From contig QCSJ01000002.1 in assembly GCA_003211535.1 (NCBI GenBank), positions 1-62,609 of the forward strand: a stretch of 62,609 nucleotides of DNA, written 5' to 3'. Each line of letters opens with the position of its first letter. Position 1 is the stretch's first letter. This stretch comes from Synechococcus sp. AG-670-A05. Lineage in GTDB: Bacteria; Cyanobacteriota; Cyanobacteriia; PCC-6307; Cyanobiaceae. Shown here piece by piece: positions 12,070 through 27,999 of this stretch. The translations under genes were made by a program, and so were the position numbers. The notes beneath the pieces were generated by a model that searched no databases, had not been told where the DNA came from, and saw only the letters and a program-made list of their open reading frames with translations.

Positions 12070-12908
12070 AGATCCCAATAATTCTTTGGTTTTCCCATGT
12101 AAGAAAGCATTTTTTTTGCATCGGGCTTGATGACCTTCAGTACACGTTTTTTGAGTTTGGGGGTCCACTGGGGCTTATCGACATGTCCTCGCCCTTTCGC
12201 GCCAGCGATGTTTTCTTGGGGCAACGTGAGATCACTCTCTAGAATCAATTGCAGCTTTGGCTTGACTCCTAGGAAGCGGAGCATCGTTCGTAATGTTCGC
12301 TTTGGACGATCTAGAAGGTCCTCGAAGGTAACGCAGTGAATTTGATTGTCTGGGAAGTATTCTCTAAAAGATGATAAATGTCGATGGTAGAGTGAACAAC
12401 CGACAACTAAGCGTCTGAGCGTACGGTTGTCCATCAGATCGCTAAAATCAGCGCAATCAGGTGTACGGCCGCGATAATGACGCCATTGCGAAATAATTCT
12501 GTCTAGAGGATGGCGAACGACATAAATCAGTTTGAGGTTAGGTAGACATCGTCTCATCAGTTTAGGAGCATATCGAAATGATTTCATTCTGCTTGCATAT
12601 AGTGTGCTTGCCTCTCCGCGAAGTGCCATGGAAGCCCCCTTTTCGAAGCGTGAGGCGTACCACTCCCACCCTTTTGAGTGATAGCGGCCAAAGAATTTCG
12701 GCTCTTTCGGTTTGCTGATAAAGATGTCTGGATGTCTCGGAAGAACTGTTGTTAGTGTTGTCGTCGCAGACTTAGCTGCGCCAATGATGATGAAATTTGG
12801 CAGGCTTGATATTTTTTCTTCAATAAGACTGTCGTAATCTCCGCGAAGGGACTCCTTCATCATGCGTATTGAATCGACGTTGGATCCCATGATGCTCTCC
12901 CAGATCAC
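12066..12908 (-). CDS. Sulfotransferase (Sulfotransfer_1-like), second of three
   Basis: A 280-residue protein beginning at a GTG that overlaps the preceding stop (GTGA at 12905-12908); an ATG at 12890 is an alternative. NFIIIGAAKSATTTLTTVL is a classical 5'-phosphosulfate loop and KLIYVVRHPLDRIISQWRHY the 3'-phosphate site, as in the heparan N-sulfotransferase/Sulfotransfer_1 group. It is clearly not a paralogue of its two neighbours, which are of the Sulfotransfer_2 type. It is translationally coupled on both sides. Two distinct sulfation reactions on the same glycan are implied. Confidence 0.85.
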   Translation of the reverse strand: MIWESIMGSNVDSIRMMKESLRGDYDSLIEEKISSLPNFIIIGAAKSATTTLTTVLPRHPDIFISKPKEPKFFGRYHSKGWEWYASRFEKGASMALRGEASTLYASRMKSFRYAPKLMRRCLPNLKLIYVVRHPLDRIISQWRHYRGRTPDCADFSDLMDNRTLRRLVVGCSLYHRHLSSFREYFPDNQIHCVTFEDLLDRPKRTLRTMLRFLGVKPKLQLILESDLTLPQENIAGAKGRGHVDKPQWTPKLKKRVLKVIKPDAKKMLSYMGKPKNYWDL

Positions 12909-13681
12909 GCTTTTGTTTCTAACTGTTGTTTGGGGTGAGATTGCTTGCTCTTGCGCTGCAGTGGGGGTAATTTTTTGAGCCCGTCTCCATTGAGCAGCTC
13001 CTCAACAGAATAATCACTGTAGAAAAGATTGAAATCGTGTTCATAGCGCTCAAGCACTTTGTTGACAAGATTTGACGAGTTGAACAGTTTGCGGATATCC
13101 GATTTCCCGTCTCGCCTAACATTCTTGTAAGGAAGTTCTCCAAGAGTTGGTAAGCCCTCGTGTTTCATACGACGGCGCAAGCGCTGCCAGTGATCGGACA
13201 TATGTTCCATTCGTCCGATGAATTTTGGAACAAGTTTGTCGGAGCAAAGTAACATGTCGGCCTGTGGACGAACGTGGTTATCCATGCTCTCTAGGTCGGC
13301 CTTGCAAATGATTTCAATGAAATGATCGAATGCCATTCCGTGGTGTAATCCCATGGTTTTCATGGGTAATGGCACATCATCGATTTCGAGGATCTTGTTG
13401 TTATAGGCTGCCACTAACCTGTCAAAGGGATTGCGCACAAAGCTAAAACTGAAGTGGCTGCTGCGTAGTCGCCTGGCATGTTTCGGGGTGACTAATTCAG
13501 TTTCTCCATGGGTATGTTCTCGCCAAAACCTATCTGCTGTTGTCTTGATCCCACCATCTGGTCGCTGGATCAGAAATTTGCACAGTGTGGCTTTGATCGA
13601 TGAATTGGCGACTTTCGGGACTCGCCCGTATAACAGCGGGATGTCACGAAACAAGATGAAGTGCCGAGGCGATTTGCTCAT
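12905..13681 (-). CDS. Sulfotransferase (Sulfotransfer_2-like), first of three
   Basis: A 258-residue protein whose ATG overlaps the stop of the NeuB-fusion gene (ATGA at 13678-13681). It shows GRVPKVANSSIKATLCKFL and SFVRNPFDRLVAAYNNKILE, and aligns along its whole length with the last gene of the operon, including HTHGET and the GM.F motif, so the pair arose by duplication. The C-terminus is Lys/Gln-rich. Family knowledge: PAPS-dependent O-sulfation of carbohydrates, as in chondroitin and HNK-1 sulfotransferases. The acceptor is not known. Confidence 0.83.
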   Translation of the reverse strand: MSKSPRHFILFRDIPLLYGRVPKVANSSIKATLCKFLIQRPDGGIKTTADRFWREHTHGETELVTPKHARRLRSSHFSFSFVRNPFDRLVAAYNNKILEIDDVPLPMKTMGLHHGMAFDHFIEIICKADLESMDNHVRPQADMLLCSDKLVPKFIGRMEHMSDHWQRLRRRMKHEGLPTLGELPYKNVRRDGKSDIRKLFNSSNLVNKVLERYEHDFNLFYSDYSVEELLNGDGLKKLPPLQRKSKQSHPKQQLETKA

Positions 13682-15942
13682 GACGCCGCTGCTGCTTCAA
13701 GTCGTTCCAGTGCTAGCCATGCTCCTTCTCCACCGTTCTTATGTCCTTGCCAGATCTCAGGGATGAACGACGCCTTGGGGCAGTGTTGATTGATCTGCTC
13801 AAACAGTTGAACCCAATCAATATCACCGTCTTCAATTTGAAGCCCTTCTCCATCCACATCCTTGGCATCTGCCAGATGTAAGTGGGCCGTAAACGGCAGG
13901 ATCTGAGCGAGGAACTTACGGAAGGGGATATGTAGATGGTTGCAGGCCAGTTTAGAATGTGAGACATCCAAACAGACGCGCATACTCTGCTCTTCGCAGA
14001 AGTTGCGAATGAAGTCGGTGTCCACAAACAAGTTGTGGAAGCGTTGTCCACCAAAGTGCCAGGGGAAGGGAGGCATTGTCTGGGGAATTATTTCCACCTC
14101 GCCTGAAGTGTCGAGATGCCGCAGGCTTTTGATCAGCCTGTCGCGCAGAGGTTTGCGCTCGTCGATGTTGAGGTGATGGTGCTCGGAGAAACCACCTACA
14201 TTGGTCACCAGCAAGACAGGTTCGTGGCATTGAAAGCGGTTTCTCAAATCCTTTGAAATGTTGATCACCCGCTGAAGTTCGGCGATGGAGTGTTGTCGAT
14301 AGCTTTCGTCAAGGGTGCAGAGATCCAGGGTGTGGTCGCTGGCAAAAAGCTCCGGGGCATGAATCACCAGTCCGATGCCCTGTTGCTCCGGAAGAACTCG
14401 GTTGAGGTCAACCTCAAGATCCTTGTAGCTGAGGTGGATTTCCACGAGATCGAGGTTGCTGACTTCGGAAAACACCTTGATGTCGTGGTATCGAACGGGC
14501 AGCCCAAAGGGCTGCTTGAACTGATAGGTGCGTGGGCTGGCAGCTGGTGTTTCCAGATCGGATGGGAAGAACACCTCCCCTTGGGCCTTGGCTACAGGCA
14601 GTCGGCGGCCTATCAGATCCTTCAGTCGGTTGGGTTGCAGACCCTGCCCTGGGCTCTGGATGCGCACCATCTCTTCCGTGATTTCTGTTCCGGCCGGCAC
14701 CTCACAGGCTGCAACAAGGCTCTTGGCCAACACCTCACGGTTCATCATCTCGCCCTGGCTGATGCTTCGCTCACCGCCTTGGCCCATGGACTCCTCCACC
14801 CTGCGGATGCCTTGCATCATTTGGGCGAATTCATCAGGCAGCAGGCTCACCTTGTGATCGTTTCCTTCCATACCGCGATCGAGGGTGATGTGTTTTTCGA
14901 TAACTGCTGCCCCCATGGCTACCGCCGCAAGAGGTACCTCAATTCCCCGTTCATGGCCTGAGTAGCCCACAGGGGCTTCTGCCAGTTCCCGTAGGCGGTC
15001 CAAGTACCGCAGGTTCACGTCCTTGAATGGCGTGGGATAGGTTGAGTTGCAGTGCAGAAGCACATAATTTGCCCCCACCTGCTGCAAGTGGCGAATGCCA
15101 GAGCGAATCTCAAGTTCGCTTGCCATGCCGGTGGAGCAGATCAGAGGTTTCCCGGTGGCGGCCAACTGACTGATCAGCGTGTGATTGGTGAAGTCAGCGG
15201 AGGCCACCTTGAATCCCTCCATGCCCCAGCCATTCAACTTCTCAAGGCTGGTCTCATCCCAGGGGGTGCACAGCGGCACAAGCTCTTTGGATGCGGCGTA
15301 GTCAAAACAGCGGAACAACTCTTCGTCACTAAGTTGGAAGCGCTCCAGCAGGTCAAGGGTGTACTGGGTCCCCAGATCCGAGGCCATGTCGTTGCTGTCG
15401 CCGGCATTGCTATACAGCTTTGACATGTCTCGCATCTGGAACTTGGCGCAGTCCGCCCCAGCTGCATGGGCCGCATCTATCAGCTGAAGCGCAACGGAGA
15501 CATCACCGTTGTGGTTGTTACCGATCTCGGCGATCACGAAACTGGGCTCGCCATCACCGATGCGCCGGGATCCCAACTGCAGAGCGTCTGTGGCGGGCAA
15601 GACAACCGCAACAATCCGGCCATGGCTGTCGAGCAGCGGCAGGGCGATGATTCTTGAGGTCAGTAGACCTGAGAGTTCTCCAGAAGGTGTGCCTTCCCGA
15701 GCGGTGCGGCAGTCGGCGTTCATTGCCGCTGTCACCGGGCGGTTCAGATCGATGTCACCACAGCTCGCGATCCAGCGGCGGAAATCGCCATCGGTAAGTA
15801 CACCCTGCAGGATCCCGGATTCCGAGACCACAAAGATCAGCCGTGATTGATTCGCGGTGATTTTGCTCAGGGCGGAGAGGATCGTGTCCTCAGCAAAAAC
15901 AACGAACTGCGTGAAGTTCCTCTCGATCTGGATACCCTTCAC
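13678..15942 (-). CDS. CBS-NeuB-SAF-TIM barrel fusion, nonulosonate synthase
   Basis: A 754-residue multidomain protein. Residues 1-125 are two CBS motifs (GVLTDGDFRRWI is typical). Residues about 133-385 are the NeuB barrel (PSFVIAEIGNNHNGDVSVAL, CSTGMA, GYSGHERGIEVPLAAVAMGA, EKHITLDR). Residues about 403-460 are an SAF/antifreeze-like domain (AKSLVAACEVPAGTEI). From about 478 there is a second TIM-type barrel like xylose isomerase/AP-endonuclease-2 epimerases (VCLDVSHSKLACNH, HLADAKDVDGEG). NeuB condenses phosphoenolpyruvate with an N-acyl-hexosamine to a nine-carbon nonulosonic acid. The C-terminal barrel may make or epimerise the precursor, and the CBS pair may sense nucleotides. It sits between the glycosyltransferase-like genes and the sulfotransferases. 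Confidence 0.88.
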   Translation of the reverse strand: MKGIQIERNFTQFVVFAEDTILSALSKITANQSRLIFVVSESGILQGVLTDGDFRRWIASCGDIDLNRPVTAAMNADCRTAREGTPSGELSGLLTSRIIALPLLDSHGRIVAVVLPATDALQLGSRRIGDGEPSFVIAEIGNNHNGDVSVALQLIDAAHAAGADCAKFQMRDMSKLYSNAGDSNDMASDLGTQYTLDLLERFQLSDEELFRCFDYAASKELVPLCTPWDETSLEKLNGWGMEGFKVASADFTNHTLISQLAATGKPLICSTGMASELEIRSGIRHLQQVGANYVLLHCNSTYPTPFKDVNLRYLDRLRELAEAPVGYSGHERGIEVPLAAVAMGAAVIEKHITLDRGMEGNDHKVSLLPDEFAQMMQGIRRVEESMGQGGERSISQGEMMNREVLAKSLVAACEVPAGTEITEEMVRIQSPGQGLQPNRLKDLIGRRLPVAKAQGEVFFPSDLETPAASPRTYQFKQPFGLPVRYHDIKVFSEVSNLDLVEIHLSYKDLEVDLNRVLPEQQGIGLVIHAPELFASDHTLDLCTLDESYRQHSIAELQRVINISKDLRNRFQCHEPVLLVTNVGGFSEHHHLNIDERKPLRDRLIKSLRHLDTSGEVEIIPQTMPPFPWHFGGQRFHNLFVDTDFIRNFCEEQSMRVCLDVSHSKLACNHLHIPFRKFLAQILPFTAHLHLADAKDVDGEGLQIEDGDIDWVQLFEQINQHCPKASFIPEIWQGHKNGGEGAWLALERLEAAAAS

Positions 15943-15980: not shown

Positions 15981-17294
15981 TTACCCCACGTCCCGGTAGG
16001 TCACGCTCAGCACAAGTCGCCTGATGATCCGGTTCTGTGCTTGGACAGCCCGTAGTCGGCGGGCCACATTTCGATGGGTTGGTCGCATCAGGATGCCGAG
16101 TCGCAACAGACTCTCTGCCTCGTTCCAGTTCTTCTCCTGAATGGCACGTTCTGCATCGCGGCGCAGCTGGGTGAAGCTGAGGTTGGCGTTGCTGAGGTAG
16201 CCCGGTTTAGTGAGCGGACTTTCTATCGGGTCGGATTGCAGTTGGCGTAGGGCCCTGATCAGCTTCTCAGGGGCAAGATCGGTGCCGTACCCCATCCAGG
16301 CAAGCCAGTCTGGATCAGGGGCGGGCAGCGAACTGTCAAGAGCATCAAGATCTTCCACATCGTCCAGGCACTGCCAGACGCCCGATCCGGCGAAGACATG
16401 GCTTCCGTTCGTCGGATTGATGCCGAAATCGGCCATAACCATGGGCCTGCAACCGAAGTCCAGAGCGTCGAAGAAGGCGGTAGATGACACCGTGGCCATC
16501 AACCTGGACTGACGGAGCAGCTCTGGCAAGGGTCGGTAGTCGAGCCTTAGGTTGTCTGGAGGATGGCCGAGGGTTTGCTGAAGCGTGGCACTGATGTGGT
16601 TGGTAGTGCTGTGAAAGGTTGACTCACCTGGTGCAATACGAGGTTTGACCAGCACCTCCCAGTCCGGCGACCGTCGGGCCAGGTCCGCCAGGATCCGTAC
16701 CAGGTTTGCTCGTTCTACGGAATTTGACGGCATCACCACTTGTTCAGCGAAAACCAGCTGCTTTCGCCTCTGTTGTTGGTTCAGGAATTTTTGATCCGTG
16801 GTGCTTTGACGCTGCAATCCGGTGAGCACAGTGCACTGACCGGCAAAGGGAGTGCCCTCCAGCATTCGTGCAAGCGTTTCGCGATCACGAGGTCCGCTGA
16901 GACAGATGAGGTCATATCCCAGCCGCCAGCTCATACCCTCCATAAACTTCTCGAGTACAACACCGTTGAAGCCGCAGAACAGCAGCGGCCGCCCAAGGCT
17001 GGGCATTAATTCCAGTGCCAAGCGGAAGTCACTGATCTTGCTTCCGGTGAGGTAGACGCCGATGGCATCGAACTGATGCAGGCTGGGGTGGGATAGCAGC
17101 TGACCCATATCCAGCCGCCAGAGATCACCGAGGGCCGCAGCCCGCTGCAAGATCAAGTCCGGCGTTCCCTCGCGTGGAATGGCATTGATGGTGATCTGAA
17201 CGTTGAGGCTCGAAGGGAAGCGGCATAGGGCTTCACACGCCAGCAATTGGCTATCGCTGTCGCCGATCAGCAGCAGTTTGAACGGATGATTCAT
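15981..17294 (-). CDS. Putative glycosyltransferase (DUF6716-like), third of three
   Basis: A 437-residue protein starting with ATGA overlap to the previous stop (17291-17294). The N-terminus KLLLIGDSDSQLLACEALCR looks like the first Rossmann unit of a GT-B enzyme. The C-terminal half has the pattern common to all three neighbours: a KPRIAPGEST strand, LPELLRQSRLMATVSSTAFF, and a downstream MVMADFGI. TVSSTAFFDALDFG is the kind of nucleotide-sugar site seen in capsule-type transferases. Residues about 360-437 add a helical, TPR-like tail. The setting beside NeuA/NeuB suggests use of a CMP-nonulosonate. Family name from memory; function inferred. Confidence 0.65.
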   Translation of the reverse strand: MNHPFKLLLIGDSDSQLLACEALCRFPSSLNVQITINAIPREGTPDLILQRAAALGDLWRLDMGQLLSHPSLHQFDAIGVYLTGSKISDFRLALELMPSLGRPLLFCGFNGVVLEKFMEGMSWRLGYDLICLSGPRDRETLARMLEGTPFAGQCTVLTGLQRQSTTDQKFLNQQQRRKQLVFAEQVVMPSNSVERANLVRILADLARRSPDWEVLVKPRIAPGESTFHSTTNHISATLQQTLGHPPDNLRLDYRPLPELLRQSRLMATVSSTAFFDALDFGCRPMVMADFGINPTNGSHVFAGSGVWQCLDDVEDLDALDSSLPAPDPDWLAWMGYGTDLAPEKLIRALRQLQSDPIESPLTKPGYLSNANLSFTQLRRDAERAIQEKNWNEAESLLRLGILMRPTHRNVARRLRAVQAQNRIIRRLVLSVTYRDVG

Positions 17295-18346
17295 GGCATC
17301 AGCTCCCCCAGGCAGCGAATCAGGCGCGTGGTGCCGTCATGCACTCCCCAGCCCATGGACTGCAGCCAGGACGCGTTGACGGGTGGCAACGCAAGAAGTT
17401 GATCCAACTGGTCAATCGTCTTAAGACGATGCATGCTGCCGCTGCCGAAGAACGCAGTGGTTCCCTGTGTTGTATGGATGCCATAGTCGCCGATCATGAA
17501 GGTTTGACGCCCCCATGCCATGGCGGTGAGGCTCCAGGCTGAGCTCACGCTGAGGCAAGCGCTGCAGCTGGTCAGCTGGCTCAAGAGCTGACCTGGAGCT
17601 CCGAAGTCCAGGTTGGCAGGAAGCGTCCAGTCGCTCGATTTAAATTTGGCTATCCAGGGTTGACCCCTCTCCCAAGAGTGATCGCGTTGAACGACGATCG
17701 ACCACTCTGGAGACGTTTCCGCCCAGCGGATGAGCTGTCTTAGCAGCTGTGCCTTGGCACCGATCTGGGTGGGAATGCTTTCCTGCACGAGAACGAGCAG
17801 GGTGTGGGGTGGCTTTGGCGATCCACCATTGAGGCCGCCAAGGGGAGGTCGTTCCGGTGAGAACCAATGCCCGATAGCCGCAATCCGTGGTAGTGCCACG
17901 CTCTCGGGCCAGAACTGCGTGATTGCTTCAAGTTCTTTTCGCTGCCGTTCGCCTGGGACCACCAGGAGATCGCAGGACTGGCGATCACTCAGTTCATGCA
18001 CCAGGTTGTCCCCGACCGATGCCTCGAGAGGACCGCTGAAGACTTTTGCAGCGCGCTGACCCCGCTGACGAGCGAGTTCGCGGTGCGCGTCGACAAAGTG
18101 TTGGAGCTGGTCGTTGCGACGCATGAACACGCCCACGGCGCTGGCCGATTCCAGCAGCTCATGGTTTAGCAGATCCATCAAGCTCAAAGGAATCTGCGGG
18201 GTCACCGTTGGCAGAGGACTGTGTTTGCGCTCGGACAGCGCCGGACCGATGGTCAGGCAGGTCTGACCGCGCTGCTCAAGCTGCTGAGCCAGCAGCTGAC
18301 AGGCCAGTGCGCTCCGGTCGTCATCACTCACCAGAAGGATCGTCAT
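17291..18346 (-). CDS. Putative glycosyltransferase (DUF6716-like), second of three
   Basis: A 351-residue protein. The start at 18346 (MTILLVSDDDRSALACQLLA) is preferred because ATGA overlaps the preceding stop; upstream in-frame Met codons lie inside that gene. It shares the overall plan of its neighbours: Rossmann-like N-terminus, then LTSCSACLSVSSAWSLTAMA and a downstream FMIGDYGIHTTQG. It is the shortest of the three and lacks the C-terminal tail. Sequence identity between the three is clearly low, so they probably differ in acceptor or linkage. Confidence 0.62.
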   Translation of the reverse strand: MTILLVSDDDRSALACQLLAQQLEQRGQTCLTIGPALSERKHSPLPTVTPQIPLSLMDLLNHELLESASAVGVFMRRNDQLQHFVDAHRELARQRGQRAAKVFSGPLEASVGDNLVHELSDRQSCDLLVVPGERQRKELEAITQFWPESVALPRIAAIGHWFSPERPPLGGLNGGSPKPPHTLLVLVQESIPTQIGAKAQLLRQLIRWAETSPEWSIVVQRDHSWERGQPWIAKFKSSDWTLPANLDFGAPGQLLSQLTSCSACLSVSSAWSLTAMAWGRQTFMIGDYGIHTTQGTTAFFGSGSMHRLKTIDQLDQLLALPPVNASWLQSMGWGVHDGTTRLIRCLGELMP

Positions 18347-19662
18347 CTTTCCCTCAGCCATCTCGACAGCCAACCGAATCCCACCAGCCCATCACGCAGG
18401 CGGCGCAGAAGGGTGCGGGTTTTGTGACGTTTGCGCTGGCTGGAGCGAGCCCCCCCGCTGCTGAGCATGCGGCGGCCGCCGTGGCGGATCGCGTACGTCT
18501 GCCAGCTGGGGCTGCCCCAGCTGCCCGGGCCAAGACCATTGGTTGGCAACGGGGGTCGGTCTCTATGCAGTCGCTCCAACAGGGCGGCGAGAAAGATCTC
18601 CCGTCCCTGGTGGTGGTGTCCATGCTGATGAAGCCAGTCGTCCTTGTGAATCGGGGTGAAGGGGTCACGAGCGATGGCAGCAAAGTCCGCCACGGCTCCC
18701 GATTCGGCGAAAAAGTGATTGCCAAGGGTCTCGGTGACACCGAGATCGCCGACGATGCGGGTGCTGACACCCATGGCCATGGCCTCGAGGGCTGCAGTCG
18801 ATGACACAGTGATGGCGCAGTGACATTGCCGGAGCAGCCGCGTGGCTGGTTTGAAACTGAGCTGTAGGTTGGGCACGGTTTCGCTCATTTGCTCGATCAC
18901 ACTGGCCATCTCTCCGTGGCGCCGGTGCAGCGTGCTCTCGATGCTTGAGGTTCGCGGTTTGAAGATCACCGGATAGTCAGGCCAGGCTTCCGCTAGCTCC
19001 TTGAGCTTCATGCAGATGTAGCGCCGTTGCAACGGATGGACCGGAATTGAGGGCTGCTCGAAGAACACGATCGAGCTTTTGTCGGGTGCTGCTTGATGGT
19101 GTTCGGCATTCCAGAGCAAGGGCAGGCCCGTCACCACAGCGTTGTCGCTGGCCAGCGCCAGGGCCTGACAGCCGAGCCGATAATTGCTGAGGTCCTGCTC
19201 ACTGTTGAGGCAGAGCAGATCAGCGCCTGAACGGTCCAGCATTCCCTCGAGGGCAAAGCGAAACAGGATCCCCGGATAGGCGCTCACTAGAACAGGGCGA
19301 TCAGGGCGCTGGCTCCACTCCTTGGCGAGCATGAGGAGCGCATCACGGCTGCGGAAACCGTCCAAACCCAGTATCAACACGTCAATGTCACCGACCATTG
19401 CGGCTGTCAGGCTGCGGAAGTCACTCCAAGAACTCTTTTTGATGGGCGTGCGGGGGTCGGTACGACGAATCTCCAACCGTTGTCGGCGGGACAGAGCCCT
19501 GTTAGAGATCTGCAGCAAATGCAGGGTGGTCTCGGCTCCCTCCTGCCGGCAGGCAGAGAGCAGGGTCATGGCCACTTTCCCGAAGGAATCAAAGCAGGCG
19601 ACGGCTGCAACCTTTCGGCCAGACAGGCGCTTGTCGGCAGCGGGCGCCATCGGTGGCCTCAT
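18343..19662 (-). CDS. Putative glycosyltransferase (DUF6716-like), first of three
   Basis: A 439-residue protein starting at the ATG at 19662, 14 bp after the neuA stop; the ATG at 19650 is also possible, while a longer frame would overlap neuA. It opens with KVAAVACFDSFGKVAMTLLS and later shows FKPRTSSIEST, RQCHCAITVSSTAALEAMAM and TRIVGDLGV, which match the corresponding elements in the next two genes. The C-terminus from about residue 370 is Arg-rich and ends in WLSRWLRER, perhaps membrane-associated. Proposed role: transfer of an activated nonulosonic acid or neighbouring sugar. Confidence 0.63.
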   Translation of the reverse strand: MRPPMAPAADKRLSGRKVAAVACFDSFGKVAMTLLSACRQEGAETTLHLLQISNRALSRRQRLEIRRTDPRTPIKKSSWSDFRSLTAAMVGDIDVLILGLDGFRSRDALLMLAKEWSQRPDRPVLVSAYPGILFRFALEGMLDRSGADLLCLNSEQDLSNYRLGCQALALASDNAVVTGLPLLWNAEHHQAAPDKSSIVFFEQPSIPVHPLQRRYICMKLKELAEAWPDYPVIFKPRTSSIESTLHRRHGEMASVIEQMSETVPNLQLSFKPATRLLRQCHCAITVSSTAALEAMAMGVSTRIVGDLGVTETLGNHFFAESGAVADFAAIARDPFTPIHKDDWLHQHGHHHQGREIFLAALLERLHRDRPPLPTNGLGPGSWGSPSWQTYAIRHGGRRMLSSGGARSSQRKRHKTRTLLRRLRDGLVGFGWLSRWLRER

Positions 19663-19676
19663 CGAATCTGGCAAAA

Positions 19677-20357
19677 CTAGCCGGATGCACGAGCCGCAAG
19701 GCTGCGGCACAGGGCCAGATCGGCTGGGTTATCGATCTCCGGTCCTGAATCGTCTATCACGACGGGTTGCCAGGGGGCGCAGAAGCGGCTGCCACTGGCT
19801 CGAAAAGCGTCTGTGGTCATGGCGTAGATCGCGCCGGTTTCCAGAAAGGCGGGCTCTAAATCCTGGCGTCGCTGACGTGGTTGCTGGGGGTCGTGGTTGA
19901 TGCCACGGCCGTCACGGCGCCAGAGGAAGCCATGCCAGGGCGCGACAGCGAAGGAACTGTTGATTTCAGGGTTCTGCAGTGCTGCCAGCACCTGGTCGAT
20001 CTGGGAGCCGCTGGTGAACGGGGACGTGCATTGCAGGAACACCAGCTGGGCGGGCAGCGGCCCTTGTTGTTCCAGTGTTTCGAGGGCGTGAAGAAGAGCG
20101 GATTCGGAACTGGCGCTGTCATCGGCGATGGCTGCCGGACGCCGCACCACCTTAGCTCCATGGGCTTGAGCCTCTTCAGCGATGGCGTCATCGTCGGTGC
20201 TGACCACCACCCGGTCTACCCCGCGGCTGGCGAATGCCGCTTGCACGCTGCGAGCCACCAGGGAGAGCCCGCCCACGTCTTGGAGGTTCTTGCCAGGGAT
20301 GCCCTTGGAGCCGCCTCGCGCTGGAATCACAGCCAGGGCTCCAGGGGACGCGATCAT
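19677..20357 (-). CDS. neuA: Acylneuraminate cytidylyltransferase (CMP-nonulosonate synthetase)
   Basis: A 226-residue protein, the usual length for this family. AVIPARGGSKGIPGKNLQDV (residues 9-28) is the CTP-binding signature of NeuA/KdsB-type enzymes, followed by RVVVSTDDDAIAEEA and VFLQCTSPF. It would activate the NeuB product with CTP to the CMP-sugar used by the transferases. It is the first gene of the - strand operon, and only 32 bp separate its start from that of kpsC on the other strand. A KdsB (CMP-Kdo) role is less likely, given the distant motifs and the NeuB partner, but cannot be excluded. Confidence 0.85.
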   Translation of the reverse strand: MIASPGALAVIPARGGSKGIPGKNLQDVGGLSLVARSVQAAFASRGVDRVVVSTDDDAIAEEAQAHGAKVVRRPAAIADDSASSESALLHALETLEQQGPLPAQLVFLQCTSPFTSGSQIDQVLAALQNPEINSSFAVAPWHGFLWRRDGRGINHDPQQPRQRRQDLEPAFLETGAIYAMTTDAFRASGSRFCAPWQPVVIDDSGPEIDNPADLALCRSLAARASG

Positions 20358-20389: not shown

Positions 20390-22375
20390 ATGATTCAGCG
20401 CTTCGGGGTGCCGGAGACAGGTCTGCTGGCCCATCGCACGGTGCCCTCGCTGTTGGCTCCGGCAGAATTGCTCAGCGGCTGCCGTCGGGATGTGGACGCG
20501 CTGCTGGCCTGGGGGCGCCGGCCCAGCGCTCGGCGGGTGGAGCGCTTGGGGCTGCACTGGCAGCTGCCGGTCTGGCACCTCGAGGATGGCTTGCTGCGCT
20601 CCTTGGCTAAAGGGTCCAAGCATCCGCCTTTGGCGCTGTTAGTGGATGACTTGGGTGTTCATTTCGACGCCACTCAGCCCAGCCGGTTGGAGCAACGCAT
20701 CCCTCAACCGCTTCAGCCGGAGCAGCAGCAGCGAGCACGCCGTCTGCAGCAACTGTGGTGTGAACTGCGCCTGAGCAAACTCAATCCAGCCCGAGAGTCG
20801 CCGGCCCCGAACGCACCTTTCGTTCTGGTAGTGGATCAATCCGCCGGAGACTGCTCAATCGCTCTCGGACAGGCTGGTCCGCAACACTTTCAGCAGATGC
20901 TGCAGGCTGCCCTGAGGGATCACCCTGACTGCACCGTGGTTGTGAAGGTGCATCCCGATGTGATCCGCGGCCGGGCCCGCGGCCATTTCCGCCGTCGGGA
21001 TTTGCAGCACCCCCGTATCCAGCTCTGCGCCGACGGGCTTCACCCCGCTGCGCTCCTGGAACAGGCCCAGGCGGTGTACGTGGTGACCTCCCAGATGGGC
21101 TTTGAAGCCTTGCTTTGGGGCAGGCCGGTGCAGTGTTTCGGAATGCCCTTTTACGCCGGCTGGGGGCTGACCCGCGACCGCCTTCCGGCGCCGTCTCGCC
21201 GCCAGCAGGGCATTGCTCTGGAAGGGGTGGTGCATGCGGCTCTAGTGGCCGGCACCCGTTGCATTGACCCGCATCGGCACCAGGCCTGTTCGATCGAGGA
21301 GCTGATGCGGGCGATCGGGCTGCAACGCCGCCTGCAGAGGGCGCATCCACAGCGAGTGGAGGCCTTTGGGTTCACCCCTTGGAAGCAACGCAGCCTCAAG
21401 TGTTTTTTGGCCGGTAGTGCCTTGCGCTTCCGCCTGCCGCGGTCGCTGCCGGGGCCGCGGGCGGAGGCTGTGGCTGTGTGGGGTCTGCGGGCTCGACCGC
21501 GTCTGCTAGCTACAGCTCGTCAGCGGGGCCTACCGCTGCTAAGGGTCGAGGATGGTTTCCTGCGCTCGGTGGGTCTGGGGGCAGATCTGATCGACCCGAT
21601 TTCCTGGGTGGTGGACCACCGGGGGATGTACTACGACGCCGCCGTTGCCAGCGATCTGGAGTACGGACTGGCCACTGGGGACTGGAGTGAGACGGAGTTG
21701 CAGCGTGCCGAGGCCTTGCGCCAGCTGCTAGTGGAGCGTGCAATCACCAAATACAACCTGACCGGTGGAGGATGGCAGCGCCCGGAGGGTGCCCGGCGTG
21801 TGGTGCTGGTGGTGGGTCAGGTGGAAAGCGATGCCTCAATCCGCTACGGCGCCCCTGGGTTATCCAGCAACCTGGCGCTGCTGGAGGCGGTACGAGCTGC
21901 TGAACCGGCAGCTTTGCTTGTTTACAAGCCCCATCCAGATGTGGTGGCGGGCCTCTGCCGCGCTGGAGATGGAGAGCAGCGGGCTGCACAGATCTGCGAC
22001 TGCCTGCTGAGCGATGGGTCGATCCATGCCCTGTTCGAGCAGGTGGATGCCTTGCACGTGCTCACCTCCTTGGCGGGGTTTGAGGCGTTGCTGCGGGGAC
22101 TGGAGGTGCATTGCTGGGGACTGCCCTTCTATGCAGGCTGGGGACTGACCCAGGACAAGTTGTCGTCCTCCCGGCGGGGACGCTCGCTGCCCTTGGCGGC
22201 GTTGGTACATGCCGCTTTGATTGACTATCCCCGGTATGTGAGCCGCCACAGCGGTTGGTTCATCACCCCTGAGCAGGCGATCGAGGAGCTGGTGGCTTGG
22301 CGGTCGGCACCGCCGGCCCGACGCACCTTGGTGCAGGCCCTGTTCCGCCACTGGGGGCGTATGCGCCGCCGCTGA
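20390..22375 (+). CDS. kpsC: Capsular polysaccharide beta-Kdo transferase KpsC
   Basis: A 661-residue protein (start ATG 20390, MIQRFGVPETGLLAHRTVPS) made of two halves of similar design. Each half has a VWHLEDGLLRS/RVEDGFLRSVG motif, a DQSAGDCSI/GQVESDASI strand, a VKVHPDV/YKPHPDV motif and an FGMPFYAGWGLT/WGLPFYAGWGLT motif. This duplication is typical of KpsC (LipA), which adds alternating beta-Kdo residues to a lipid acceptor to make the linker of group 2 capsules. It acts on the cytoplasmic face of the inner membrane. kpsS follows 20 bp downstream. Codon use is GC-rich like the core genome, so transfer is not recent. Confidence 0.92.
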   Translation: MIQRFGVPETGLLAHRTVPSLLAPAELLSGCRRDVDALLAWGRRPSARRVERLGLHWQLPVWHLEDGLLRSLAKGSKHPPLALLVDDLGVHFDATQPSRLEQRIPQPLQPEQQQRARRLQQLWCELRLSKLNPARESPAPNAPFVLVVDQSAGDCSIALGQAGPQHFQQMLQAALRDHPDCTVVVKVHPDVIRGRARGHFRRRDLQHPRIQLCADGLHPAALLEQAQAVYVVTSQMGFEALLWGRPVQCFGMPFYAGWGLTRDRLPAPSRRQQGIALEGVVHAALVAGTRCIDPHRHQACSIEELMRAIGLQRRLQRAHPQRVEAFGFTPWKQRSLKCFLAGSALRFRLPRSLPGPRAEAVAVWGLRARPRLLATARQRGLPLLRVEDGFLRSVGLGADLIDPISWVVDHRGMYYDAAVASDLEYGLATGDWSETELQRAEALRQLLVERAITKYNLTGGGWQRPEGARRVVLVVGQVESDASIRYGAPGLSSNLALLEAVRAAEPAALLVYKPHPDVVAGLCRAGDGEQRAAQICDCLLSDGSIHALFEQVDALHVLTSLAGFEALLRGLEVHCWGLPFYAGWGLTQDKLSSSRRGRSLPLAALVHAALIDYPRYVSRHSGWFITPEQAIEELVAWRSAPPARRTLVQALFRHWGRMRRR

Positions 22376-22395
22376 GGCGTGCCAGGATCTTCCCA

Positions 22396-24423
22396 GTGCT
22401 GGACGGCGATTTGGGCAGGGGACGGGCGCCGGCGTTGGTACAGGTGCGCATCGAAGGACCTGTCTTGCTGCTGATGGGCCCGATTGGGTTGTTCTTTGCT
22501 CGCTTCAGCAGATACCTGCAGGGCTGCGGTATTCCGGTCACCAAAGTGACCTTCCCGCTGAGGGAATTTGGCTTCCCGTCGGACGTGTGTGTGCCATTCC
22601 GGCAGCCGATGGAGGCCTGGCGGCCTTTCCTGCGCCAGCTGCTGCAGGAGCGCGGCATCCGCCATATCTTTATGTATGGGGATTTCATCATTCCCCACAG
22701 GATTGCCATTGAAGAGGCTCAAGCGCTAGCAATTGAGGCCTGGGTGTTCGAGCTGGGCTACCTGAGGCCCAATTACGTGACGTTGGAGCGGGACCGGGTC
22801 AATGCTCGCTCCAACCTCAACCAACCAGCGGCATTTTACCGCGACCTGCCTCCGGTAGATCAGCTGCCGCAGGACATTGTGCTGGACCCAGGCTGGCGCT
22901 GGCGCAAGGCGTGGAAGGCACCCACCTTCATGCAGCACGCCTTCACCCACTACCCGATAATCGAGGGCGAGCACAAACTGCAGCCCACACCAAGCTTCCT
23001 TTGGTGCCAGCTTCGTGGAAGCTGGCGTTACTGGCTGTACCGCTGGCAGGAGCGGGATCTGAAGCGCCGGCTGCTGGAGCACCTCTCCTTTTTCCTGGCA
23101 GTGCTTCAGGTGTCCAGTGATTCCCAGATTCAGCTGGGTTCGCCCTACCGCGGCATGCACGACTTCATCGAAGACGTAATCCGCTCATTCGCAGCCCATG
23201 CCCACAGCTCAGACCATCTGGCCTTCAAGCACCACCCGCGGGATCGGGGCTACAACAATTACTCCAGCCTGATTGCCTTGCTGGCGGGCCGTTACGGCAT
23301 CCGTGGTCGAGTGCACTACTTCCACGACGGCCCCCTCAGCCGTTACCTGCGCACCTGTCGCGGCGTGATCACAGTGAACAGCACGGTGGGTCTTCAGGCC
23401 CTGTTCCATGCCGTGCCTACCAAAACGATGGGCACAACCTTCTACAACCTCGAAGGACTGACTGACCAGAAGTCACTGGATCGCTTCTGGTTGGACCCGC
23501 ACCCCAGTGACAGGCCGCTGTTCTGGCGCTTCTATCACCACCTGGTGATGACCACCCAGGTGAACGGCAACTTTGACGGAGACTTCCCCTTCCGCGTCAC
23601 CTTCCCGATCGGTCCAGAGGCGCGTAAGCTGCAGCCGCAACCAAAGCTGCCACATTTGCAGCCCAGGACGCTTGCGAACCCCTTGCTGTTGCCGGCCCGA
23701 GTGCTGGCACGCCTGGCATGGGCGGCTCTGGGTTTCCTGCTGTACGGCCTGCAGCTCCCTTCAGTGCTGCTCCGCCGTTCGGACTGGGCGGCTCAGTTGA
23801 TGACCTGGGCCTCTGCCGTGGCCCTGCGCGCCCTGGGGGTGCAGGTTGTGGTGGACGACAGCCAACCCAGTGAGCCGGCCGGGGTGCCACTGGTTCATAT
23901 CTTCAACCATCGCAGCCCTTGTGATGGCCTAGTGATTCAGGGTGTATTGCGCCTGCCGGGCATGACTACAGCACAGTTGCATCTGAAATGGGTGCTGCCT
24001 GGCTATGCAGCCGCAGCTCGCAATGCTGGATCGGCCGTTTTGGATCACCGCCAGCCCAGTTCGCGGCTGGAGGGGATGATGCGGGCCTCTGCGCTGTTGC
24101 GCGACCAAGGTCAAATTATGCTGGCACCTAATGGCTCACTGGTGACCCCGATCGAGCAGCGGGTGTCTCCAAGTGCATGGATGCTGGCCCAGCATTACAA
24201 CGGGTGTGTTGTGCCCTGGCTGTTCCGCTACGAAGGACTGGAGGGGGCTGTGGGAGCGCGATATCGCCCCCTGGCGCTGCTGCTGAGCCGGTTGACGTCA
24301 CCTCTGGGGACGATTCACTGCCGCCGAGGTCGTTCCAAGGATCTGGTCCTGCCAGATGATCCCCGGGATCGGGAGGGTTTCAGCCGTGCGGTGCAGGCCT
24401 ACTACCGGCTAGCACAAGACTGA
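22396..24423 (+). CDS. kpsS: KpsS-type Kdo transferase fused to an acyltransferase domain
   Basis: A 675-residue protein if begun at the GTG at 22396 (AGGA 8 bp upstream); an upstream ATG at 22297 lies inside kpsC. Residues about 15-430 match KpsS/LipB: GPIGLFFARFSRYLQGCGI, FMYGDFIIPH, FELGYLRPNYVTLERD, FKHHPRDRGYNNY and ITVNSTVGLQALFH. KpsS adds the first Kdo to lyso-phosphatidylglycerol. Residues about 500-660 look like a PlsC/LPLAT acyltransferase (HIFNHRSPCDGL has the catalytic NHx4D). The later EGT motif appears as PNGSLVTP, so it is degenerate. The fusion could acylate the lipid acceptor. The 3' end overlaps the convergent KAS gene by 44 bp. Confidence 0.85.
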   Translation: MLDGDLGRGRAPALVQVRIEGPVLLLMGPIGLFFARFSRYLQGCGIPVTKVTFPLREFGFPSDVCVPFRQPMEAWRPFLRQLLQERGIRHIFMYGDFIIPHRIAIEEAQALAIEAWVFELGYLRPNYVTLERDRVNARSNLNQPAAFYRDLPPVDQLPQDIVLDPGWRWRKAWKAPTFMQHAFTHYPIIEGEHKLQPTPSFLWCQLRGSWRYWLYRWQERDLKRRLLEHLSFFLAVLQVSSDSQIQLGSPYRGMHDFIEDVIRSFAAHAHSSDHLAFKHHPRDRGYNNYSSLIALLAGRYGIRGRVHYFHDGPLSRYLRTCRGVITVNSTVGLQALFHAVPTKTMGTTFYNLEGLTDQKSLDRFWLDPHPSDRPLFWRFYHHLVMTTQVNGNFDGDFPFRVTFPIGPEARKLQPQPKLPHLQPRTLANPLLLPARVLARLAWAALGFLLYGLQLPSVLLRRSDWAAQLMTWASAVALRALGVQVVVDDSQPSEPAGVPLVHIFNHRSPCDGLVIQGVLRLPGMTTAQLHLKWVLPGYAAAARNAGSAVLDHRQPSSRLEGMMRASALLRDQGQIMLAPNGSLVTPIEQRVSPSAWMLAQHYNGCVVPWLFRYEGLEGAVGARYRPLALLLSRLTSPLGTIHCRRGRSKDLVLPDDPRDREGFSRAVQAYYRLAQD

Positions 24424-25645
24424 TGTTATGGCCTCCGAAGCCGAAGGCATTCTTGAGCAGTAGCAGTTTGCCTTGTTCTGAAGGCAGCGCCACTGGTCCT
24501 TGGTTGGTCACCGCCAGCATCACTTCCGGATCAAGGGGATCGGCGTTGAGGCTACCGGGCATGACGCCCTGGCGCAGGGCCTGCAGGGCCAGGATGCTTT
24601 CCACTGCGCCGGCGCCCCCCAGCAGGTGACCCAGCTGGCCTTTGGGGGCATAAACCGGTAAGTGATCAGCAGCGCTGCCCAGGCTGCGCCGCAAGGCCCT
24701 GGCTTCCGCTAAGTCACCGAGGCTAGTGCCGGTGGCATGGGCCTGAACGCCGCAGAGGTCCGTGGGACTGACATCCGCTCGACGCAACGCATCCTCGATG
24801 GCACGGCTGGCCTGGAGACCCTGGGGCTCCGGGGCGACGATGTGGTGGGCATCACTGCTGCTGCCACTGGCCAGCAACCAGCCCAGGTCAGCCCCTTCAG
24901 GGGTATCCGACTGCCTCATCAGGGCCAGTACGCCGGCTCCTTCTGAAAGCACAAAGCCATCCCTGCCCTGCCCGTAGGGACGCGAGGCCTGATCCGGGGC
25001 CTCGTTGCGGGTGGAGAGAGCACGCATCGCGGAAAAACCCACCAGTCCCAGCCGATTCACCGGCGCTTCGCTGCCACCAGCCAGCACCAGATCGGCACGG
25101 TCATCGTTGAGCAGCATCTGAGCCAGCATCAGTGCTTCGGCGCCTGAAGCGCAGGCTGAAACCGGGGTGTGAGCTCCACCGAGGACACCGAGATCGATGG
25201 CGATCTGCCCGGCGGCAGCATCCGGAATCAGCATTGGAACGGTGAGCGGGTTCACCCGGTTGGGGCCTCCAGCGCTCAAGTGCATGTGCTGGTCGTGCAT
25301 CGTTGCGAGACCACCAATGCCCGTGCCGACCACTACGGCAACTCTGTTCGGATCGATGCCTGTGGTTACAGGGGTGGCCATAGCCCAGGCCTGACGGGCC
25401 GCTATGACTGCCAAATGGGTACAGCGATCAGAGCGACGACGCAGTAGCGGCGAGAGGCTGTCAAGGGTGCCGGTGGGGACGCAACCGGCCAGACGCACGG
25501 GCAGGTCGTCGGTCCATGGTTCCCTAATGACCTGAATCCCGCTTCTACCGGCTACCACTGCATTCCATGTGGAATCAGCGTCGACTCCCAAGGGGTTAAG
25601 AGAACCCCATCCCACGACGGCTGTTGGCTCAGCTCGGGGTGCCAT
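24380..25645 (-). CDS. Beta-ketoacyl-ACP synthase (KAS II-like)
   Basis: A 421-residue protein started at the ATG at 25645 (MAPRAEPTAVVGWGSLNPLG), 17 bp inside the acyl carrier protein gene. The thiolase-fold triad is complete: Cys in VSACASGAEALMLAQ, His in VQAHATGTSLGD, and His in KGQLGHLLGGAGA. The terminal KNAFGFGGHN motif is also present. It elongates acyl-ACP with malonyl-ACP. The setting (dedicated ACP, GNAT acyltransferase, capsule genes) suggests a specialised rather than housekeeping role; primary fatty acid synthesis genes are not next to it. It resembles but is not assigned to fabF. Confidence 0.87.
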   Translation of the reverse strand: MAPRAEPTAVVGWGSLNPLGVDADSTWNAVVAGRSGIQVIREPWTDDLPVRLAGCVPTGTLDSLSPLLRRRSDRCTHLAVIAARQAWAMATPVTTGIDPNRVAVVVGTGIGGLATMHDQHMHLSAGGPNRVNPLTVPMLIPDAAAGQIAIDLGVLGGAHTPVSACASGAEALMLAQMLLNDDRADLVLAGGSEAPVNRLGLVGFSAMRALSTRNEAPDQASRPYGQGRDGFVLSEGAGVLALMRQSDTPEGADLGWLLASGSSSDAHHIVAPEPQGLQASRAIEDALRRADVSPTDLCGVQAHATGTSLGDLAEARALRRSLGSAADHLPVYAPKGQLGHLLGGAGAVESILALQALRQGVMPGSLNADPLDPEVMLAVTNQGPVALPSEQGKLLLLKNAFGFGGHNISLVLAGSRPAPHG

Positions 25646-25910
25646 CGGCAGCGTTTGTGCTGAGAGATTCAAGGTGCTGCAGGATGTCGGCAACTGTGCG
25701 GAAGCGCAGGAGCTCTTCCTCTTTAATGCGAATGCCGAAATTCGTGTCCGCTTCGATCAGGATTTCGTAGAAACCAAGTGAATCAATTCCCACGTCTTCC
25801 ATCAACCGGGCATCCGGGGTGATCGCGGCTGGGTCGGCGCCGGAGATGCGATGCAGGATCTCGATCAGCCGTCCCTGCAGCTCCTGCTTGTCAGGGCAGC
25901 CCTCTCCCAA
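25629..25910 (-). CDS. Acyl carrier protein, dedicated
   Basis: A 93-residue acyl carrier protein. The phosphopantetheine serine is in GIDSLGFYEILIEAD (Ser44), preceded by helix I and a DARLMEDV loop. It has a longer than usual C-terminal tail (SLSTNAADGTPS). Its end overlaps the KAS start, so the two are translationally coupled. Placement with KAS and a GNAT acyltransferase points to delivery of a special acyl chain. It is distinct in sequence from the usual acidic housekeeping AcpP. Confidence 0.88.
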   Translation of the reverse strand: MGEGCPDKQELQGRLIEILHRISGADPAAITPDARLMEDVGIDSLGFYEILIEADTNFGIRIKEEELLRFRTVADILQHLESLSTNAADGTPS

Positions 25911-25958
25911 TGCACGACCTCCTTTAAATGAACAGCCAAAGTATCAGTGCTGGTGGGA

Positions 25959-26870
25959 TCACCCTTCCCCCCGGTACCAGCTGAATTGGTGGTAGACGGG
26001 CTGATGGGGTAAATCGATGAACAGGGCTAGTCGTTCAGGAGGGAGTCGATGCAGATCAGCGGCCATCAAGATTTCCGTGATCTGGTTGAAGTCCAGGGCT
26101 AGGGACAGACCACAGACTTCCGCCTGCATCAGGTTGACGTACTGACGCAACAGCACCGGCAGGCGGAAATCTGCAGAAAGGTTCTGGCGGATCTCCTGCT
26201 CGAGGGCCTGAATGTGACCGCTGGGGTGTGGCTGTTCATCAACATTGATGCCCGGCACCGGATAGCGCGGTGGTGGTAGTTGGCTGTTGCAAAGGCGGTA
26301 AGGCGGGCGCATCAGGGCGCTGAGAAAGGCGGAGTTCACCCCGTCGCTATGCGCGAAGTGGTTGTACGACACCAATCCATGCAGCAGGTGGTAACCACTG
26401 CGGGCTGCAATCAGTAGTCCGCCACGAAACAAGGCCATCAGTGAATGGGGCTGACGTTGAAAGCGCTCAGCCAAGGCGACTCGTCCGATCTCAAGGTGGT
26501 TGGTGCGGTTGGCTAGTGCTGCCTTGATCCCGGGATAAACATGCTCGAGATACGAGCTGCTGCTGCCGGGCAGGTCGCTTGCTCCAGCGGGAATGAACTG
26601 CAGCCGGGCGGAGCCGGCAAGGTCTCCACTGCTGCGTTCAACCAGAAGTAGGTGGTCGTAGTGGGGATCGCGACCGTCAAGATCCCGTTCCTCGCCGGAT
26701 CCGGAGAGCTGCTTTCGATAGGTGGACTCCCGCAGCTGCCCGACCGCATCGGCTACCTCTGCAAAGGCAATGCCTGAGATCAGGTGGAGATCCAGATCAT
26801 CGATCGTCAGCAAGCGAGTGTCCGTCGCCTCAGCCAGGCTTGCGGGAATGGACGGACCAGACAGCGTCAT
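25959..26870 (-). CDS. OlsB-like GNAT acyltransferase
   Basis: A 303-residue protein. The core around residues 50-185 has the order seen in OlsB/autoinducer-synthase-type GNAT proteins (Acetyltransf_5): YRKQLSGSGEERDLDGRDPH, then HLLLVERSSGDLAGSARLQF-like strands, LEIGRVALAERFQRQPHSLM, then LIAARSGYHLLHGLVSYNHF. OlsB transfers a 3-hydroxyacyl group from ACP to the amino group of ornithine. It is the first gene of the GNAT-ACP-KAS unit (48 bp before ACP) and diverges from the export gene across 46 bp. The substrate is not known. The C-terminal 100 residues are outside the core and unassigned. Confidence 0.65.
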   Translation of the reverse strand: MTLSGPSIPASLAEATDTRLLTIDDLDLHLISGIAFAEVADAVGQLRESTYRKQLSGSGEERDLDGRDPHYDHLLLVERSSGDLAGSARLQFIPAGASDLPGSSSSYLEHVYPGIKAALANRTNHLEIGRVALAERFQRQPHSLMALFRGGLLIAARSGYHLLHGLVSYNHFAHSDGVNSAFLSALMRPPYRLCNSQLPPPRYPVPGINVDEQPHPSGHIQALEQEIRQNLSADFRLPVLLRQYVNLMQAEVCGLSLALDFNQITEILMAADLHRLPPERLALFIDLPHQPVYHQFSWYRGEG

Positions 26871-26916
26871 TGTTGTTCCAATCTGTCTCAGTCAGCGGGC
26901 AGATTAGACCCGTTCC

Positions 26917-27999
26917 ATGATGCGCCCAGGTTCTGTGGTTTTGACCCGTCTGTTGTCGGGAATGGTGGCCGTGGCTGCATCTCTGGCGGTTGCTCCGATT
27001 GGACTATCTGATGTTTCTGTGGCGCGAGCAGACAAGTTATCAAGCATCAGCAGGGATTCCTTTCGCTACAAGCTGGGTCCTGGGGACAGCTTGGCCATGT
27101 CCGTGTTCAAAATGAGCGGATACGAGGCAAGGGTGAAGGTGCTGAGCGACGGCACCATCAACCTGCCCCGCATAGGTACGGTCGACGTGTGGGGGCTAAC
27201 GCTGGAGGAAGCGCGCCAGAGGATCACGGAGGCCTACGAGGTCTTTCTTCGCCGTCCAATCGTATATCTCGATCTGGTGACCTCTCGCCCGGTGAAGGTC
27301 ACGGTGACCGGAGAAGTTGGGCGCCCCGGAGTGTTCAGCCTGCCAACCCAACTAGCAGGGGGCTGGCCAACCCTGGTCGATGTTGTACAGAAAGCTGGTG
27401 GTGTGACTGCCAGTGGTGATCTCTCCCGAATTGAGGTCTTGCGTCCGTCTGCGCGATCCGGAAATTCGATTCAGCGTTACCAATTCGACTACCTCACGGT
27501 TCTGCGCGAGGGAGGGCATGCCCCGAACCCTCTGATTTATGACGGCGACAGCATTCGCTTGCACAAAAACGAGGGCGTGAATAATGCCGATCTGATCACT
27601 ATGGCGGCCTCTAACTTCGCCCCAGACACGATCCGCGTGAACGTGATCGGGGAAGTGGCCAAGCCGGGTGTCCAGCAAGTGCCGTCCAATGCGCCGTTGT
27701 CCCAGGCGATCTTCGCGTCTGGGGGAATTACCCGTCGCGGCAGCATCAGCACAGTGGAACTGGTGCGTATGGATGGTGATGGGCAGCCGACGGTATCGGT
27801 CATGAGTTTCGACCCCAGCGCAGTGCTGAGCAGCCCCACGAACCCACCACTGCGTCAGGGGGATGTGATTGTGGTGAACCGCACAGGACTGGCCAAGGTG
27901 AGAGACGGCCTTACAGATGCATTGTCGCCGCTGACACCGATCGTGAATGCAGCGTCGATCTTCCGGATCCTTGGCTTGCCCTCCGTGATTGGCAACTGA
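26917..27999 (+). CDS. Polysaccharide export protein (Wza/KpsD-type, Poly_export-SLBB)
   Basis: A 360-residue protein with a long signal region ending near VSVARA (residue 38). Residues about 50-130 form the Poly_export domain (YKLGPGDSLAMSVFKMSGYE, then LSDGTINLPRIGTVDVWGLT). Two SLBB domains follow (VTVTGEVGRPGVFSLP and VNVIGEVAKPGVQQVP). No lipobox Cys is seen, so it resembles periplasmic KpsD more than lipoprotein Wza. It would form part of the outer-membrane exit for the capsule. No ABC transporter (KpsM/T) gene is present in the window. Confidence 0.87.
   Translation: MMRPGSVVLTRLLSGMVAVAASLAVAPIGLSDVSVARADKLSSISRDSFRYKLGPGDSLAMSVFKMSGYEARVKVLSDGTINLPRIGTVDVWGLTLEEARQRITEAYEVFLRRPIVYLDLVTSRPVKVTVTGEVGRPGVFSLPTQLAGGWPTLVDVVQKAGGVTASGDLSRIEVLRPSARSGNSIQRYQFDYLTVLREGGHAPNPLIYDGDSIRLHKNEGVNNADLITMAASNFAPDTIRVNVIGEVAKPGVQQVPSNAPLSQAIFASGGITRRGSISTVELVRMDGDGQPTVSVMSFDPSAVLSSPTNPPLRQGDVIVVNRTGLAKVRDGLTDALSPLTPIVNAASIFRILGLPSVIGN

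Follow-up and report, generated by a model that had tools for sequence, protein, structure and literature searches.

A capsule locus that probably makes its own lipid anchor in some Synechococcus, Cyanobium and relatives

On which lipid is the capsule of these picocyanobacteria anchored, and do the capsule genes themselves make it? This question is raised by a capsule locus of Synechococcus sp. AG-670-A05, which lies in a stretch of 62,609 nucleotides (contig QCSJ01000002.1; the window hereafter) of a Cyanobiaceae draft genome (2.0 Mb in 142 contigs, 83% complete) for which the named collection includes Synechococcus, Cyanobium and Vulcanococcus as near relatives. The lipid end of capsules linked through 3-deoxy-D-manno-octulosonic acid (Kdo) has been treated as a conserved (lyso-)phosphatidylglycerol (PG) in the Gram-negative bacteria studied. 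In the window, the Kdo transferase KpsS is fused to a PlsC-type O-acyltransferase and tied to a GNAT-type N-acyltransferase, which points to a different acceptor. Judging from these genes, some Synechococcus, Cyanobium and relatives probably carry their capsule on a custom-made lipid, possibly free of phosphorus, and not on the phospholipid of the textbooks.

The initial annotation had named kpsC, kpsS fused to a PlsC-like domain, a beta-ketoacyl-ACP synthase (KAS), an acyl carrier protein (ACP), a GNAT and an exporter gene here. All of them were found to be present and intact through their open reading frames (ORFs) and profile searches, and their coordinates were correct to within a few codons (Table 1). 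As a shared role had been proposed for the GNAT and kpsC/kpsS, we determined their co-occurrence in 300 Cyanobiaceae genomes, 196 of which were at least 90% complete (near-complete). The GNAT was found in 43 and KpsS in 45 of the 300 genomes. Among the near-complete ones both genes were carried by the same 36 genomes and none had one gene alone, and the discordant genomes (G159, G103, G279 and G297) were all incomplete drafts. For 42 of the 43 GNATs about 20 kb of surrounding sequence was taken where the contig allowed it (the window itself for its own genome) and the window proteins were mapped onto it. Forty of these loci were readable, the remaining two lying on contigs of 3.9 and 5.8 kb that stop before kpsS, and kpsC and kpsS adjoined the GNAT gene in all 40. 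The adjacency persisted where GNAT identity was only 28-42% and where purB or sugar genes were not alongside, and in each of genera g1, g5 and g9 some genomes had both genes and others had neither. The association was thus strict, a chance neighbourhood being ruled out by the 40 adjacencies and the identical genome sets, and the pattern that would have counted against it, GNATs lying mostly away from kps genes, did not appear, as zero Cyanobiaceae GNATs were found apart from kps. A naive co-occurrence test was overwhelming, a statistic that ignores relatedness, and the pairwise identities of GNAT and KpsS were correlated (rho 0.92), which partly reflects vertical descent. In a sample of the phylum, six weak and partial GNAT matches (27-33 bits) were obtained, all in family f7, and no KpsS was found outside Cyanobiaceae. 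The restriction of KpsS to Cyanobiaceae in this sample agrees with a 2015 survey, which concluded from the confined distribution of KpsS and KpsC that cyanobacteria assemble polysaccharides differently from the Kdo-linked route (PMC4594306). The coupling of Kdo transferase, O-acyltransferase and N-acyltransferase is well supported, and it is nearly certain that these genes function jointly with the capsule system.

Alternatively, the GNAT and the PlsC-type enzyme could make an ornithine-like membrane lipid for encapsulated cells that is not attached to the capsule, just as many bacteria use OlsB/OlsA-type pairs for free membrane lipids (PMC11631085). The placement of GNAT, ACP and KAS on the strand opposite kpsC and kpsS would agree with such a separate product. 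We consider it quite unlikely, since the O-acyltransferase shares a polypeptide with KpsS and no near-complete genome kept the GNAT or KpsS by itself.

The KpsS part of the fusion matched Capsule_synth (PF05159, 4.4e-56 at residues 124-426) and covered the whole of the NCBIfam KpsS model (NF050054, 2.5e-83), under its equivalog cut-off of 600, and the C-terminal part matched the acyltransferase family PF01553 (3e-7 at residues 527-617). As most homologues align from residue 30-49, KpsS probably starts some 35-45 codons into its longest ORF. The catalytic HX4D motif of the acyltransferase was intact in the window (HRSPCD) and present in 36 of the 40 KpsS fusions. In three loci (L065, L066 and L073) the fused domain had decayed (26-29% identity, no HX4D) and a separate PlsC of 257-273 residues with an intact HENPLD was encoded between KAS and kpsS; in two more (L071 and L072) the fused and separate copies were both intact. 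An intact HX4D acyltransferase was therefore present in 39 of the 40 loci, 36 fused and 3 separate, and the compensation of decayed domains by a separate intact enzyme is an argument that the locus needs acyltransferase activity. A pseudogene or decayed acyltransferase was ruled out for the window by its intact HX4D; such decay is real in the three relatives, where it is compensated. As modelled by AlphaFold (predicted local distance difference test, pLDDT, 85), the C-terminal domain matched Thermotoga maritima PlsC (5KYM) best and also mycobacterial PatA. A partner O-acyltransferase of the OlsA/PlsC type is thereby present, and the PlsC-like assignment holds at the level of the PF01553 family, as in OlsA, with one unusual feature. 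In most members block III has the sequence PNGSLVTPI or PSGSLVTPI, as against the PEGTRS-type motif by which the PlsC family binds the phosphate of its acceptor, and this departure hints at a non-phosphate acceptor. The fusion was not recovered in proteobacterial plasmid KpsS proteins, for which 0 of 101 records covered 80% of the query and none reached the PlsC part.

The GNAT matched the C-terminal half of OlsF (1.8e-15), and among 12 homologues the OlsF model was matched by 12, GlsB by 11 and, weakly, OlsB by 5. The window protein scored under the curated cut-offs of every named family, including OlsF, a two-domain model (56.5 bits against a cut-off of 620). The earlier OlsB-like assignment thus stands for the family (PF13444, with OlsF, GlsB and OlsB matches) and does not extend to a named enzyme. 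A search with tblastn against plasmids returned OlsF-type proteins with 24-26% identity to the GNAT across 80% of its length, and a profile sequence search against the Protein Data Bank gave no match. The AlphaFold model (pLDDT 90) aligned with BjaI, LasI and FeeM (Z 13.4 to 12.8, the last for FeeM). The D-x-x-D, R and E-x-x-R positions were invariant across the family, which we take to be the pattern of LuxI-type synthases. From sequence and model, acyl-ACP-dependent N-acylation of an amino compound is a reasonable activity for this protein.

Two groups of known enzymes resemble it. Like the OlsBA, OlsF and GlsB systems, the locus combines a GNAT that is related over its full length to the C-terminal half of OlsF with a PF01553 partner, as OlsB is combined with OlsA; it differs from them in scoring below the curated cut-offs, in the fusion of the acyltransferase to a Kdo transferase and in its dedicated ACP and KAS, and OlsB/OlsA and OlsF make free aminolipids (PMC11631085). 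The N-acyl amino acid synthases FeeM/FeeL and those associated with PEP-CTERM/exosortase systems (TIGR03694) share the GNAT fold and a GNAT gene beside its own ACP and polysaccharide genes. The fee gene order itself places the GNAT beside its own ACP. However, the window GNAT reached only 11.9 bits (E 0.11) with TIGR03694 against a cut-off of 111.95, it has the OlsF-type C-terminal region FRLPVLLRQY...DFNQITEILM, and no exosortase was seen in the genes examined.

A conventional anchor would have KpsS use (lyso-)PG, with the fused PlsC re-acylating it or making PG and with the GNAT and ACP acylating a capsular amino sugar and not the anchor. In its favour, the PlsC-type fold most resembles lysophosphatidic acid acyltransferase, the polymer genes suggest nonulosonic acids that bear amino groups, and in E. 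coli K5 the capsule terminates in Kdo on (lyso-)PG (PMC7694667). This reading is nevertheless unlikely in our estimate, given that block III is not of the phosphate-binding type and that the GNAT matches amino-acid N-acyltransferases along its full length. Besides, the GNAT tracks kpsS and not the type of polymer, and the CMP-sugar gene was undetected in the loci of g5, g32, g37 and genome G092, all of which keep the GNAT.

ACP and KAS flanked the GNAT in 37 of 42 loci and were missing from the other five (four g5 genomes and G092); in those of the five loci that were read, another ORF, glycosyltransferase-like by eye, lies between the GNAT and the exporter. They were therefore rejected as members of an invariant core, and the invariant set is KpsC, KpsS(-PlsC) and the GNAT. 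Of the GNAT-ACP-KAS unit that had been expected to travel with kpsC/kpsS, only the GNAT always does so. The KAS retained its Cys-His-His catalytic residues in the aligned loci and the ACP its DSL motif in all copies. As the closed relative G112 has a further, housekeeping-like KAS (39% identity) and a main ACP (25% identity) elsewhere, the KAS and ACP of the locus look like a dedicated pair. In G262 (L130 9352-10984, G262:C75), where the kps locus is without ACP and KAS, a second ACP-KAS pair that is 38-41% identical to that of the window lies elsewhere and is followed by a gene of 370 amino acids.

The assignment to a Kdo-linker capsule, made originally from kpsC and kpsS, was borne out by their profiles and by the CMP-Kdo pathway. 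KdsA was found in 25 of 25 kps-positive and 2 of 14 kps-negative genomes, and KdsB followed the same pattern, being below cut-off in two kps-positive genomes and over it in 2 of 14 kps-negative ones. The window's own genome has KdsA as a fragment at a contig edge, and in G112 KdsA and KdsB lie within 6 kb of one another. G029 and G075 carry KdsA and KdsB and are kps-negative. As the lipopolysaccharides of Synechococcus WH8102 and CC9311 are reported to be without Kdo (PMC4515613), the Kdo probably serves the capsule. KpsM homologues were identified in the window's genome and in G112 and a KpsE homologue in G112, all below equivalog cut-offs; a KpsE-like gene of the window's genome was assigned because its start resembles that of the G112 gene. 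These KpsM/KpsE-like genes lie away from the kps locus in both genomes. In G268, where the KpsM and KpsE profile matches are likewise below equivalog cut-offs, kpsC forms a contiguous run with kpsM, an ATP-binding cassette (ABC) ATPase gene and kpsE, a layout shared by G262. KpsT was not located in the marine genomes; in G262 and G268 the ABC ATPase adjoins KpsM/KpsE. Since the CMP-Kdo genes follow the kps pattern and KpsM/KpsE homologues exist, the locus is, by its gene content, an ABC-exported, Kdo-linked (group 2-like) capsule system. It resembles the ABC-dependent capsules of E. coli group 2 and Neisseria (KpsS, KpsC, KpsMTED, Kdo on (lyso-)PG) in KpsC/KpsS, CMP-Kdo synthesis, KpsM/KpsE and the outer-membrane polysaccharide exporter, and differs from them in that KpsS has a C-terminal PlsC and falls below the NCBIfam equivalog cut-off and in that the locus contains a GNAT and usually ACP and KAS.

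The same Kdo genes bear on a Vi-like anchor, in which an activated amino sugar or the N-acetylhexosamine at the terminus would be the substrate of both the N-acyltransferase and the PlsC-type enzyme, so that the chain would end in an acylated sugar, as VexE brings about for the Vi antigen, without any amino acid. We regard it as improbable, and to our knowledge no GNAT of the PF13444-type family uses nucleotide sugars. The likeness to the Vi antigen (Salmonella Typhi, Citrobacter and some Burkholderiales) lies in a capsule locus with its own anchor acyltransferase, VexE being a beta-hydroxyacyl-ACP-dependent enzyme of the PlsC (lysophospholipid acyltransferase, LPLAT) family (PMC9597891). However, the acceptor there is UDP-GlcNAc and viaB is without kpsS and kpsC (PMC3448643), whereas Kdo genes, kpsC and kpsS are strictly present here together with the KpsS fusion and an N-acyltransferase; the absence of Kdo genes and kpsC/kpsS that marks the Vi type was not observed. 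As a precedent for a capsule-encoded anchor enzyme, VexE is better documented (PMC9597891) than the rhizobial rkp loci first invoked.

As the Kdo transferase is fused to an O-acyltransferase and evolutionarily bound to an N-acyltransferase, the lipid acceptor of the first Kdo appears to be synthesized locally. We give about even chances to an anchor of the aminoacyl type, similar to ornithine lipid and built by the enzymes of the locus. The dedicated KAS and ACP, or a housekeeping pair where these are absent, would supply (3-hydroxy)acyl-ACP, from which the OlsB/OlsF-type GNAT would move the acyl chain onto an amino group, most likely that of an amino acid, giving a lyso-aminolipid. The PlsC-type domain on KpsS would add a second acyl chain by an ester bond and the KpsS domain of the same polypeptide would place the first Kdo on this lipid, after which the KpsC-like protein would extend the Kdo linker. 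The nonulosonate-type polymer would then be added and exported by KpsM/T/E and the Wza/KpsD-type protein. We infer the substrate, the product, the order of the reactions and the identity of the lipid with the capsule anchor in this scheme. If it is right, the anchor would be a lipid with an amide linkage, for which phosphate is not necessary. The idea of dedicated lipid-anchor enzymes from the initial annotation is favoured in part by profile identities, strict co-occurrence, the Kdo pathway and conserved motifs, and is narrowed by the exclusion of ACP and KAS from the core.

Several points weigh against an aminoacyl anchor. The GNAT lies so far below the curated OlsF cut-off that its family match does not give the amino acid, ACP and KAS are lacking from the five loci described above, and L057 has no recognisable PlsC at its locus. 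The PlsC-type domain could simply acylate lyso-PG. The co-occurrence lacks a correction for the species tree, and the kps cluster belongs to a flexible region of the genome that is able to move as one unit. Moreover, KpsS would find no hydroxyl to glycosylate on the head group of ornithine lipid or another typical aminolipid; its acceptor would have to contain a hydroxy-amino acid or be linked in some other way.

Table 1. Positions of the capsule genes and their neighbours in the window
Feature	Position	Strand	Evidence
RTX-repeat protein, 1691 amino acids	5680-10755	+	
Three sulfotransferase genes	11365-13681	-	
NeuB-type synthase	13678-15942	-	profile searches
DUF6716, putative glycosyltransferase	15981-17294	-	profile searches
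DUF6716, putative glycosyltransferase	17291-18373	-	profile searches
DUF6716, putative glycosyltransferase	18343-19710	-	profile searches
CMP-sugar synthetase, nearest PseF (nonulosonate type)	19677-20357	-	1.1e-37, below cut-off
kpsC-like, full-length two-domain Kdo transferase	20405-22375 (about)	+	Pfam Capsule_synth 5.5e-79, several stretches
kpsS-like Kdo transferase (residues ~45-430) with PlsC-type domain (residues ~470-708)	22297-24423	+	profiles given in the text
KAS (FabF-like); probable real start near 25645	24380-25693	-	Pfam; FabF 2.2e-114, below cut-off
ACP, with GIDSLGF	25629-25910	-	PF00550 7.5e-12; DSL phosphopantetheine serine
GNAT N-acyltransferase, OlsB/OlsF/GlsB type	25959-26870	-	PF13444 2.5e-11
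Wza/KpsD/EpsE-type outer-membrane polysaccharide export protein	26917-27999	+	Poly_export PF02563 1.6e-18, SLBB 2.6e-19

The genes of KpsC and KpsS–PlsC converge with the GNAT-ACP-KAS genes, so that the locus forms a conserved neighbourhood instead of a single operon. The GNAT and exporter genes are divergent and separated by 46 bp (26871-26916), likely a shared control region, and purB comes after the exporter gene. In G162 (L061 4759-5691) an ORF of 310 amino acids, with a sulfotransferase-like start by eye, lies between otherwise contiguous kpsC and kpsS. The CMP-sugar synthetase, which is beside kpsC in most loci, is predicted to make a precursor of the capsule polymer, and the NeuB-type synthase and the three DUF6716 proteins are probable polymer synthesis genes. 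These genes and the three sulfotransferases upstream point to a polymer that is probably built on nonulosonates and possibly sulfated. The NeuB-type protein (754 amino acids) is an unusual fused synthase of the sialic/legionaminic acid type, in which NeuB is joined to CBS and SAF domains and to a xylose-isomerase-like TIM barrel; its copy in G112 starts with identical sequence. One of the tandem DUF6716 proteins is weakly similar to Capsule_synth, and they are possibly polymerases of a CMP-sugar-based capsule. The sulfotransferase genes are successive and partly overlapping, and the RTX protein further upstream also has an FG-GAP repeat and multicopper-oxidase-like stretches.

The kps clusters of marine Synechococcus have been described before (PMC7522525, PMC10119275), and the main-text passages on them that were found in these papers do not mention a lipid anchor. 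The kps locus, capsule-encoded anchor acyltransferases and free aminolipid synthases are each known, and a literature search, which was incomplete, found no report that combines them and no paper on a KpsS with a fused acyltransferase or on a capsule anchored by an aminolipid. It is possible, as a tentative reading of the genes, that the locus represents an undescribed class of capsule anchor, with a phosphate-free N-acyl-amino-acid acceptor made by the capsule GNAT and the Kdo transferase-acyltransferase fusion. The fusion makes the acceptor choice of KpsS, and whether it can be changed, testable in one protein. The reported lipid A of picocyanobacteria is also without phosphate (PMC4515613), and kps clusters have been suggested to matter in waters low in nitrogen and phosphorus (PMC10119275). 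If true, a phosphate-free anchor would be part of a phosphorus-sparing picocyanobacterial envelope, and would revise the view of the surface of abundant ocean phototrophs for phosphorus economy, grazing and phage attachment.

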